Shown here piece after piece: positions 18,103-21,026 of a DNA stretch of 47,820 bases. The DNA comes from Halalkalirubrum salinum (lineage in GTDB: Archaea; Halobacteriota; Halobacteria; Halobacteriales; Haloferacaceae), in the NCBI RefSeq assembly GCF_005543295.1, contig NZ_SRSG01000014.1, forward strand, positions 1 to 47,820, read 5' to 3'. Position numbers and translations under genes: made by a program. Below the pieces are notes generated by a model. That model ran no database searches, had not been told where the DNA came from, and saw only the letters and a program-made list of their open reading frames with translations. Every line of letters begins with the position of its first letter. Within the stretch, counting starts at the first letter, position 1.

Positions 18103-18250
18103 ATCCTCCCCGTCGTAAACGAAGGGGCTTCCCGTACCGCAGTTGGGATATTTGCCGGTCTACGACACGACCTGCTCTCTCGTGCGAAACATTCCGCTCT
18201 CGCGGTCGAACAAGTATGTCGATGGCTGTGCCACACAGCCGTTACTCCTA
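18098..18250 (-). ncRNA. probable tnpB-associated guide RNA (omega/reRNA, sotRNA)
   Basis: In IS1341-type elements a noncoding RNA overlaps the 3' end of tnpB and finishes at the element's right end, its 3' part reading the flanking DNA as guide. Sense overlapping RNAs of this kind are known in Halobacterium. Here the terminal hairpin is CCCCTTCG-TTTA-CGACGGGG (18108-18127 on the minus strand, one mismatch), followed by AGGATGTCAC. The natural guide would begin with GGTTGCGCAGTACACC at 18097, inside the PRC-barrel-like gene. The 5' limit given is approximate. Confidence 0.55.
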
Positions 18251-19410
18251 TCCTCACCATGAGGACTCGGAGTTATCTTCTGACGCATATTCTCCGCCCC
18301 GTTGCAATCCGCGTTCCCGACTAACCCGCACGACGAGCAGACGTACAGGCCACGTTCGGCACGGTTCGACTTCGTGTCATCACCACACTTTGAGCAGGTT
18401 TTCGACGTATCCCACTCGTTCTCCTTCAGTACCTCGACACCACGAATCTCACCTTTGTATTCGAGGTACTGGTAGATGCGGTCGAAGGCCCAGGTGTGGA
18501 GTTTCTTATTGCCGGTCTTGCCCCAATCAGATTCGCGCACGTCTTCGGGCCAACTTACTGCGAGCGTGCCAACACCGCGTTCGACACACTCTGTGATGAT
18601 GGTGTCCGTCAGTGTGTGGTAGAAGTGCGTCTCACGGTCAGCGAGTTTCCGGCGTGCCCACATCGACCTCTCGGACGGGCCGTTCTCTCCCTCCGTGTCG
18701 TATTCAGCGCGTTTGAAGTAATGCTTGTCTTCTTTGAGCGAGTTGCCGGGGTAGAGAACGTATTGGTTGGGGAATGCGACTGTGGCGATGTTCTTAATGC
18801 CAAGGTCGATACCTGCCACTTCATCGCCTGCCAGGTCGTTGGTTTCGAGTCTGACTTTGCAGACGAAGTGCAGTTCCCACTCGTCGCCGTTCCAGACGGC
18901 GCGAACGTTCTGTACCGACTCAACCTCTGAGAGGTCAACGTCCGGGCGAGTCTGATACTCGCAGAGCAGGAAGTCCGACCAATACTCCTTGAGATTCTTC
19001 CCCTTGCTGAGTCGAACGCGGTTGTTCTCAGGGTCGTGGTTGAATCCGTCTGTTTTGAACGTGACCGTGGCACGCGGTCGAGAGTCGCCGTGTTTGCGGT
19101 AACCGGGTGGATTCGCCTCGTCAAACTTGTGTCTCAGGTCAAACCACGACTGGAAAGCGTCGGAAAGTTCTTCGATGACTTTCTGACTGGATTGTGCGTT
19201 CAAGTCTTTCCAGCACGACTGGTTCTTCATATACGATTTCAGCACGCCCTCGTCTGGGATTTCGCCAGTTGCGTTCCAGATGCGGTCGGCTGTCCATCGG
19301 GCGACGTTCCAGATTTTCGAGGCGGAGTCTCCGAGCGAGTCAAGGCCATCGCAGACCTGTCGGTGGTTCTGGATGGAACCAACGTAGGTACGAGTGGCCT
19401 CAATCGCCAT
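18160..19410 (-). CDS. tnpB: RNA-guided nuclease TnpB
   Basis: A full-length 416-aa TnpB. It has an N-terminal helical and wedge part, RuvC-I with D202 in VAGIDLGIKNIAT, and the NKKLHTWAFDRIYQYLEYK bridge. A zinc finger holds C339, C342, C358 and C361, and RuvC-III has D368 in NADCNGAEN. At RuvC-II the text is LAVSWPEDVRE: the usual Glu position appears to be S286, with a glutamate three residues later (E289). Without tnpA in the element, transposition would need a Y1 transposase in trans. TnpB is known to cut the donor site using its guide RNA, which favours element retention. Confidence 0.93.
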   Translation of the reverse strand: MAIEATRTYVGSIQNHRQVCDGLDSLGDSASKIWNVARWTADRIWNATGEIPDEGVLKSYMKNQSCWKDLNAQSSQKVIEELSDAFQSWFDLRHKFDEANPPGYRKHGDSRPRATVTFKTDGFNHDPENNRVRLSKGKNLKEYWSDFLLCEYQTRPDVDLSEVESVQNVRAVWNGDEWELHFVCKVRLETNDLAGDEVAGIDLGIKNIATVAFPNQYVLYPGNSLKEDKHYFKRAEYDTEGENGPSERSMWARRKLADRETHFYHTLTDTIITECVERGVGTLAVSWPEDVRESDWGKTGNKKLHTWAFDRIYQYLEYKGEIRGVEVLKENEWDTSKTCSKCGDDTKSNRAERGLYVCSSCGLVGNADCNGAENMRQKITPSPHGEDRSNGCVAQPSTYLFDRESGMFRTREQVVS

Positions 19411-19883: not shown

Positions 19884-19915
19884 GGCCGTGGTGAATTGTC
19901 AGACGTAGCTTAATT

Positions 19916-20769
19916 TCATGGGTTTAGAGACTGCTTGATGTTGTGAACCGTACACGTCAAGACAAGTTCACGAAATTCACCGTACCAAGTTCGCGCACGC
20001 ACGGCGTCGCCGAGCGTGCGCTTGATCGTCGAAAAGACGGTCTCACACATCGCTCGTTGGCGGTAGCGAGGCCCATCGATCCGCGCGTTGTGCTCGTGAT
20101 CGATGGGCCGGAACTCCCGATGTTTAATCAATGGTCTTACCCCCTCTTCGCGGAGTTTCTCGCGTAACTCCATCCAGTCATAACCTTTGTCGGCGGCGAG
20201 GCTGGCGAGGTCGCCTGCGTTGCGGCAGGCGACCTGCCAGCCGAGCTGTGTGTCGTGACGTTTCTCGGTCGTACAGTGAACGTCAAGAATCGCTTGGCTT
20301 TCTGTGTCGACGAGAGCAGTCGTTTTGATTGTCTGGACACGGTAATTCGTCCGACAACAATAGTGTTTGCTCGCGTTTTCGCGGTCGAAAAATGTCGCGT
20401 CAATGGCGGCGTGATCGCTCGGGTCGTGCAGCTGCATCCCAAAATCGTAAACGATTTTATGGGCTCGCAAAAGCAAGCTTTTGCGAACGCCGAAAGGCGC
20501 AGCAGCACTCGCCAGAGTGCTGTCTTGATCCTATCAAACCATTTTACTAACGTCGAGTGATGCGGGAGATCGGTCGGTTCGAGGCCGATCTCCCCGAGAA
20601 TATGTGGCATCTCACTCAGCAGATCTAACGCCTCTCGGTAGGACTTCTCCAAGTAAACCCGAAGACAATGGAGCGATACGACGGCGTAATCGGCGACTTC
20701 GCCTCGGCCACCGACAGCATTTTTAGCTAACTGAACCGCTTTCTTCGTGAAGCGGGAGCTCTTCAACAT
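19916..20769 (-). pseudogene. IS5-family transposase, split by a 53-bp insertion
   Basis: Two overlapping frames together make an IS5-type transposase. The first (from 20769) runs from MLKSSRFTKKAVQ to DRIKTALWRVLLRLSA. The second continues with QLHDPSDHAAIDATFFDRE, later RPLIKHREFRPIDHEHNARIDG, and the C-terminal YRQRAMCETVFSTIKRTLGD, which carries the DDE-type catalytic D and E. Intact relatives, as I remember them, read LRLSA directly into QLHDPS. Here 53 bp (20435-20487) lie between these codons and shift the frame. Otherwise the sequence is well preserved, so the break is recent. Confidence 0.88.
20435..20487. repeat. 53-bp double-hairpin insertion in the IS5 transposase
   Basis: The inserted segment consists almost entirely of two inverted repeats. 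AAAATCG-TAAA-CGATTTT is at 20441-20458, extended by CCC and GGG on its sides, and TCGCAAAAGC-AA-GCTTTTGCGA is at 20465-20486. Such a small palindromic insertion looks like a REP- or MITE-like sequence. It has no coding capacity. Confidence 0.75.
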
Positions 20770-21026
20770 GGATCATCGGCGGTTTCCCGCTTCATTCCAC
20801 TAGTTCTGACGGTCGAAGCTGACGCAGTCTAGCGATTCACTAGAGCCGAATTACTGCTTTTTGATCGGGGCTCTATTCTTGACCCACCGGAATCTGTCCC
20901 TTCTCTCTTGGAAACGTTTCGTATGACTCTCGTCGGAAAATCCTGCCAGTTCAGGTGATAGGCTGCAGCCAGTTCAGAGCAATTATATGTATATTTATAT
21001 AATATGACGTATATTTTATCGAGAAG

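Follow-up and report, generated by a model that had tools for sequence, protein, structure and literature searches.

A widespread haloarchaeal family of 56-bp double-hairpin repeats often found inside transposase genes of insertion sequences

In a 47,820-nt stretch of Halalkalirubrum salinum DNA (the window, meaning the whole stretch analysed), an IS5-family transposase gene is broken by a frameshift, which raises the question of what broke it and whether the same thing has happened elsewhere. A sequence-only reading blamed a 53-bp segment at 20435-20487 made of two inverted repeats, one of them with a 10-bp stem and a 2-nt loop, and proposed a mobile REP- or MITE-like palindromic element that lands in other insertion sequences. 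The coordinates, both inverted repeats and the stem-loop dimensions were found as described, and the locus is laid out as follows (slashes mark junctions).

20435..20487, minus strand: inserted double-hairpin element, 53 bp against a family norm of 56 bp; in gene sense it reads CG/TTCGC...GGGATG/CAG.
20465..20486, minus strand: hairpin B, on the gene-sense 5′ side; 10-bp stem TCGCAAAAGC/GCTTTTGCGA with a 2-nt loop, as TCGCAAAAGC-AA-GCTTTTGCGA.
20438..20463, minus strand: second hairpin (A); 8-bp stem AAAATCGT/ACGATTTT, as AAAATCGT-AA-ACGATTTT at 20441-20458, plus a CCC/GGG foot (CCC 20438-20440, GGG 20461-20463) across a 2-nt bulge.
20488..20489, no strand: CG dinucleotide flanking the gene-sense 5′ end of the element; target CG or core.
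20435..20436, no strand: the element's second CG, now TG on the minus strand (CA on the plus strand); relatives end in GGACG in 66 of 71 distinct 56-bp copies.
19884..20847, minus strand: host insertion sequence, IS5 family, ISH28/ISH19-like, 964 bp; the related copies L001 and L003 are ~937 bp.
20488..20769, minus strand: 5′ part of the transposase gene; the frame up to the insert ends in ...RVLLRLSA (ORF 20137-20769, joined frame).
19916..20434, minus strand: 3′ part of the transposase gene; the frame begins with QLHDPS... and includes AIDATFFDRE (ORF 19916-20476).

Folded as single-stranded DNA, the element reaches −14.9 kcal/mol against −4.7 ± 1.7 kcal/mol for shuffled sequences (z −5.9; none of 200 as good). 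In-silico removal of the 53 bp gives a single 267-aa frame that reads RLSA/QLHDPS at the junction and matches DDE_Tnp_1 with 8.7e-25 over its joined length; the frameshift of this otherwise well-preserved gene is thus due to the insert. The segment had been said to be missing from intact relatives, and the intact relatives examined do lack it: in all four fetched plasmid copies (L001-L004) the gene reads straight through, lacking the 53 bp, with edges ambiguous by 1 bp. A wider plasmid blastn returned 35 records in which 80% or more of the region is covered at one place and, among the matches listed, full-span rows were shorter in the record than in the query, typically 632 versus 658, i.e. 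−53 +27, as read off the listing.

The host insertion sequence, whose ISH28/ISH19 naming is taken from the annotation of plasmid relatives, has imperfect ends (GGCCGTGGTGAAT.../...ATTCACTAGAGCC; 15 of 24 terminal bases match), and no exact target duplication of 2-11 bp was found at 19884/20847. Near 20702, L001-L003 have 27 bp in frame, part of a TTC-loop hairpin, that the window gene lacks; small in-frame hairpins may be gained and lost over time in this gene. Upstream in coordinates, a tnpB-like gene recognised by eye lies on the minus strand at 18160-19410, and at its 3′ end (18107-18278) there is a match to the Rfam family sot0042 of 85.7 bits, below the cut-off of 88.

The window element is no one-off but a member of a widespread haloarchaeal double-hairpin family. 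When 391 Halobacteria genomes were searched with the 60-bp sequence, seven others (G075, G104, G212, G230, G017, G032 and G302) proved to carry the same insert at the corresponding position of related IS5 genes, with stems changed on both sides, and the same design is also present at locus L014 in a different, IS6-type transposase. A covariance model built on nine copies, for which 13 candidates per genome were scored and E-values are rough, matched 354 of the 391 haloarchaeal genomes and 81 of the 86 genera (E ≤ 0.01). Across a sample of the phylum, 22 of 148 genomes matched at E ≤ 1e-4, namely 20 of 24 Halobacteria and 2 of 124 others (a split made from genome handles), and the two non-Halobacteria matches are A+T-rich variants of the same architecture from one genus. 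A degenerate-pattern scan of named genomes yielded 26 loci in Natrinema, Natrialba, Natronococcus, Halorientalis, Haloferax, Halobacterium and others. Within the genome of H. salinum itself, sequence searches with the insertion sequence and with the insert found one copy each, the one in the window, plus two chance matches of 14-15 nt; the covariance model scored the window element at 67.3 bits (E 5e-16) and added three further, divergent copies, including one within a tnpB gene. At L100 (C6:49466-49529 of this genome), a tnpB gene contains a 57-bp version that leaves the frame open, so that translation through the insert could add 19 residues.

The sequence-only reading had expected identical copies elsewhere. 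Relatives do occupy many sites in many genomes and, with the segment missing from the intact copies examined, neither of the two outcomes that would have refuted that reading occurred. Identical the relatives are not: from one target gene to the next the stems change, and they covary. For this reason, searches by exact pattern or by blastn with the 60 bp are uninformative: exact 21-22 nt hairpin patterns gave nothing useful in viral contigs, and neither did blastn in plasmids and phages. A degenerate 41-nt pattern had 0 matches in viral contigs. Rfam returned no match over the window element (E ≤ 1) nor in L076, L140 and L071 (gathering threshold). A haloarchaeal description of this repeat was not found in open-licence PubMed Central, as judged by titles and the starts of abstracts.

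One relative locus invites suspicion of an artefact: inside an IS5 copy of a public genome (L014 at ~1870-1890, and L088), a transposon-adaptor-like sequence stands beside N, probably an assembly chimera. That the element as such stems from assembly or cloning, or from a random palindromic insertion, we regard as having practically no chance, being refuted by the recurrence of this structure across hundreds of independent assemblies, some of them complete plasmid and chromosome records.

The family can be described from 104 located copies, obtained from 133 + 51 model matches after dropping reverse-strand, refetched and some weak matches as well as L013, whose hairpin is interrupted. These 104 retain some double fetches (86 distinct sequences; 95 copies after repeats are removed), and the loci are the best-scoring or exact-pattern ones rather than a random sample. 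Exactly 56 bp is the length of 89/104, with the consensus design CG/TYC-hairpin-CRGCCCA-hairpin-GGA/CG. Stems are 9 bp and loops 3 nt (5 nt if the closing C-G is left uncounted), the hairpins start 2-3 nt from the flanking CGs and the inverted ends span only 5 bp. Across 71 distinct 56-mers, every one of the 18 stem pairs is present in 65-71, the foot has a U-A pair in 42 and a C-G pair in 26, the linker is CAGCCCA or CGGCCCA in 59, and the right tag is GGACG (CGTCC reversed) in 66; the left tag is CGTTC in 59 and CGTCC in 35 of the 104 copies. A left half was followed by a right half in 17/17 matches, which come from 15 of 30 genomes. Measured against this design, the window copy is an IS5-specific version in which decay has begun, as seen in its 53 bp and in the change of its terminal CG to TG.

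It is structure more than sequence that defines the family. The nine-sequence alignment has both-side changes in 9 pairs (4.3 in shuffles; 1 of 500 as high) and a covariation score of 0.287 versus 0.171 in shuffles (0 of 500), and further pair types were no more numerous in this set than in shuffles. Among 31 copies at one ISH17 site, divergence is 57% in loops, 4% in stems and 3% in the rest of the element, compared to 37% at third codon positions of the host gene (ungapped, over 150 nt around the junction). Constraint is far stronger on stems and ends than on the interrupted gene, and nearly absent from loops. A three-way junction with the ends CGUYC and GGACG paired was considered by eye and set aside, given that the Y-R covariation of the foot favours two separate extended hairpins.

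Several copies have variants or neighbours of their own. In three genomes of one genus (G038, G103 and G206; L093-L122), tens of matches to a 55-bp variant lie inside a larger dispersed repeat. In G212, a sequence of ~110 bp with GAGTG...CACTC ends sits in the first-hairpin loop of an IS5-site element (L013, ~1505-1670), which resembles the behaviour of SMR-A repeats. In G075, the same-genus IS5 copy is seemingly split again by ~1.4 kb only a few bases from the element, going by match positions (L030/L031).

Which sites does the family occupy? The hosts include IS5, IS6 (ISH17/ISH15-like) and TnpB genes, and in-silico removal restores their long frames. The suggestion that the element lands in other insertion sequences fits these data, with 22 of 26 exact-pattern loci in IS6-family transposase genes by our own reading of frames and flanks. 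IS6-type genes have the element at three places and one gene contains two copies (L065/L092); of the 10 recognised transposase sites, seven have it in sense and three in antisense orientation.

Exact empty sites exist in close relatives. An ISH17-like gene of Natrinema zhouii aligned to N. gelatinilyticum has an exact 56-bp gap at 94.6% identity, and the tnpB of L140 has a 56-bp gap against two Haloplanus plasmids, at 87.6% and at 88.9% for the blastn-aligned part; in both comparisons there is one CG when the site is empty and two when it is filled. The ISH15-like gene of Halorientalis regularis has a 56-bp gap against H. litorea at 95.8% identity, where CA replaces CG in the empty site and a further 2-bp gap follows downstream. 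A target duplication had been anticipated too, and here the dinucleotide CG is all that could qualify, and it could equally be a recombination core.

For the target test, the 102 of 104 sites with flanks were grouped into 31, which are not all independent, hence a stricter set of 22. CG precedes the element at 29 of the 31, the two exceptions being model matches of 30.9 and 39.5 bits. Empty targets of 50 nt fold at −10.5 kcal/mol on average, versus −7.1 kcal/mol at other CGs of the same loci; the excess reaches q ≤ 0.1 at 11/31 sites (KS p 3e-4) and, once related and weak sites are dropped, at 8/22 (p 0.004). By eye, L039, L144 and L160 lie inside IS605-type palindromes. At two loci of genome G021 (L221 and L222), five or more different double-hairpin units follow one another in tandem, again by eye, each closed by CG and inside an IS605-type palindrome; these arrays look like serial insertion at CGs. 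At site ii of the ISH17-type genes L163-L212, the empty target is itself a covarying coding hairpin, GACGGC nnn GCCGTC, with the variants GTCGGC/GCCGAC and GAGGGC/GCCCTC.

Taken together, we consider it probable that these repeats form a family of miniature, transposon-like elements of haloarchaea that code for nothing and consist of two back-to-back hairpins, ~56 bp in all, with inverted CGTYC/GGACG tags. A protein supplied in trans would recognise the hairpins, perhaps while single-stranded, and the element would be joined to a CG so that a CG is left on both sides. The interrupted transposase would be dead, and the copies that survive would accumulate in hairpin-rich DNA that the cell can spare, i.e. 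in other transposons, since a 56-bp frameshift would not be tolerated by essential genes. The mobile REP- or MITE-like reading is supported in this form, with transposition itself inferred, the comparisons made having caught no insertion event between isogenic strains. Also against this reading, 20 of the 31 sites have no exceptional target hairpin (q > 0.1), and the association between element versions and targets described below departs from what random transposition out of a single pool would give.

Half-element searches returned no autonomous version or partner and no full-length element with the family's ends, which likewise counts against the main reading, as does the failure to find an enzyme. 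Nor were there lone halves: 12 apparent ones are degenerate full copies by eye, one being interrupted by a run of N. A MITE of a DDE transposon would share terminal inverted repeats with an autonomous insertion sequence and have a target duplication; the family has inverted ends of 5 bp and CG on both sides, its autonomous partner having been sought by these half-element searches.

TnpA typically acts on hairpins that have a bulge close to the foot, and 16 of the 18 genomes searched have Y1 transposase genes, so a mobiliser of this type deserves consideration. The element could be an IS200/IS605 remnant, a PATE of which two terminal palindromes are left, moved by a TnpA-type HUH transposase. 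The portions of the Haloquadratum study drawn on here (PMC3119063) include terminal-only forms as short as 52 bp, which are palindrome-based and have no target duplication, as here. The forms published there arise by loss of the core and of one of two repeated palindromes, leaving one near-terminal palindrome with terminal stretches outside it (PMC3119063), whereas our family keeps two different palindromes that start 2-3 nt from the CGs, with no 20-50 bp terminal stretch outside them. In addition, the half-element searches found no lone halves flanking a tnp gene, a right half is present for 17/17 left halves, and genomes G192 and G230 gave no Y1 match despite 12 element matches each (some perhaps the two strands of one copy). 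An IS605 origin is, in our judgement, unlikely.

Do the repeats move on their own, or are they carried? The TCC version occupies 34/35 copies at the ISH17 site and 2/60 elsewhere (p 3e-22, with related copies non-independent), and the AAAATC stem is found at 8/8 IS5 sites compared to 1/87 other places. Distances between elements correlate weakly with those between their flanks, with Mantel r 0.27 (p 0.008) upstream and r 0.16 (p 0.06) downstream. Either the association stems from recurrent gains via recombination between copies of the same insertion sequence, or the element sequence influences target choice; the ISH17-site element could mainly spread with its flanks by recombination between IS copies. 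Pushed to its extreme, the first option makes the element immobile now, the version at each target having entered once and then spread by homologous recombination and by transposition of the insertion sequence in trans. The version-target association and the weak flank correlation both speak for this scenario. It has to accommodate, however, at least about 22 distinct element sites, two different sites within one gene (L065/L092) and the contrast in the ISH17 set of 4% in stems and 57% in loops against 37% at host third positions, which is hard to obtain from old immobile junk. We deem it unlikely.

A more elaborate idea, to which we would give only a slim chance, is that the 54 nt between the CGs act as an address: foot and stem variants (TCC/CGG for ISH17, AAAATC for IS5) would be tied to hairpin targets, a recombinase would join hairpin to hairpin at a CG core, and the family would be a dispersed homing silencer of haloarchaeal transposons.

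The fate of the interrupted genes bears on any of these readings. That the insert shifts the frame of the gene it enters is plain; that the interrupted transposase is dead is our inference. It would be wrong if the element were removed from RNA as a mini-intron of the bulge-helix-bulge type, or skipped by the ribosome, so that the transposases keep working. The exact 56-nt length and the strongly conserved structure suit such a scenario, as do the whole frames restored by removal: 87+149 aa in L014, L065, L076 and L088, 194+262 aa in the TnpB of L140 and 204+212 aa in L153, while the IS6 gene of L065/L092 is whole (236 aa) only when both copies are removed. However, three of the 10 transposase sites are antisense, likewise with whole frames, whereas an archaeal mRNA intron of this type would follow the orientation of its host gene. 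Insertion phase varies as well (0 in IS5/IS6, 1 in TnpB), and no bulge-helix-bulge was seen by eye at the junctions. A codon-matched ribosome bypass was dropped as a candidate given that phases differ between host genes.

The distribution of the insert on the host tree weighs on the same question. On a tree of 80 ISH17-type genes, 30 insert-bearing and 50 empty, the insert is gained or lost no fewer than 15 times, and well-supported branches force at least 8 of these changes; 29 of the 30 insert-bearing genes come from one family. This scatter implies repeated gain or loss at one nucleotide position, and it means that whole frames and low pairwise ratios can reflect recent insertion. The tree was built by a quick method from 80 of 81 rows (the repeat L088m omitted), with 34 of 77 inner forks open and some long branches, and its empty sites were collected with a pattern that tolerated up to 3 mismatches and so favours conserved copies. 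For the tree and for the ratios over all pairs, L065 kept its second insert, the gene being counted as intact from its double-removal frame.

Within family f4, 8/30 insert-bearing and 6/16 empty copies are intact (p 0.51), and the intact insert-bearing ones have low dN/dS, 0.20 among themselves (4 pairs), compared to 0.14 in mixed pairs (11) and 0.12 in empty pairs (3), as expected if these genes were still working; the three ratios show no more than a slight trend. For all pairs below 13% divergence, the ratios are 0.24 with insert (24 pairs), 0.18 mixed (36) and 0.13 empty (124). Counting all copies, in contrast, 9/31 with insert and 27/50 without are stop-free (p 0.04). Three close insert-bearing pairs differ by 24 nonsynonymous and 7 synonymous changes (ratio ~1.2), against 10 and 27 in three close empty pairs (ratio ~0.12; Fisher p 7e-5), a contrast that is partly built in, for other stops are present in five of the six insert-bearing genes and every empty one is intact. 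Most of the evidence, namely antisense whole frames, scattered presence and varying phase, speaks against splicing or bypass, and the selection data lean the same way without being decisive; removal from RNA or ribosomal skipping strikes us as very unlikely.

The nearest known kinds are the bacterial CGTC-tagged REP dimers and the SMR-A repeats of Haloquadratum, and the family shares some defining features of each while differing in others. REPINs, i.e. REPs driven by RAYTs, are mobile inverted pairs of short palindromes moved in trans; they bear a GTAG tag, are longer and are tied to RAYT genes. The haloarchaeal family shares with them the pairing of short palindromes and, probably, mobility, but the GTAG tag and a RAYT-type partner gene were not seen in it.

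According to the sections of Di Nocera, De Gregorio and Rocco (2013; PMC3733652) drawn on here, CGTC-tagged REPs are short palindromes with 8-9 bp stems, 4-5 nt loops and an outer CGTC/TGTC tag. They mostly form head-head dimers, often of unlike units, apparently without a dedicated transposase, and some lie inside larger palindromes and inside genes. Short palindromes are common to both, and unlike halves are paired here in 17/17 cases, like the head-head dimers. Yet the left tag is mostly CGTT here (59/104) while the right one is CGTC (66/71), the stem is 9 bp with a loop of 3 nt (5 nt without the closing C-G), and in place of an inner CCA tail there is CRG, with TGG on the other strand (linker CRGCCCA). 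The haloarchaeal dimer is moreover one rigid 56-bp unit whose usual homes, as far as seen, are transposase genes.

SMR-A repeats are ~110 bp long with prominent terminal inverted repeats, comprise three families in one species and insert into IS605/PATE palindromes by an unknown route, as reported in the parts of Dyall-Smith et al. (2011; PMC3119063) considered here. They are likewise haloarchaeal, tiny and non-coding, have no clear target duplication and insert into palindromes of other transposons. This last habit recurs in our family as the excess of target hairpins (p 3e-4; 0.004 in the stricter set), yet 20/31 sites are unexceptional. The 56-bp length and 5-bp inverted ends set it apart from SMR-A, a comparison made by description and not by sequence.

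Mitochondrial double-hairpin elements and GC clusters offer an analogy in design and in stem/loop evolution, not by sequence: going by the passages of PMC4478555 and PMC2800124 used here, they are short hairpins with conserved stems and variable loops, have a dinucleotide flank (AG for GC42), insert into genes and stay in transcripts.

These data extend REP-dimer-like repeats, described in bacterial phyla in the sections of PMC3733652 drawn on here, where archaea appear only in the reference list, to a whole class of archaea. In this family the empty sites are exact, the junction is defined by a CG, and the target rule can be measured. How repeats of the CGTC type move has been left open in print, as far as those sections go (PMC3733652), and the reoccupied transposase sites together with the version-target association turn the identity of their mover into a testable question. 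If the interrupted genes are dead, the repeat would be a parasite that silences transposons, and it could account for some of the frameshifted transposase genes of haloarchaea.
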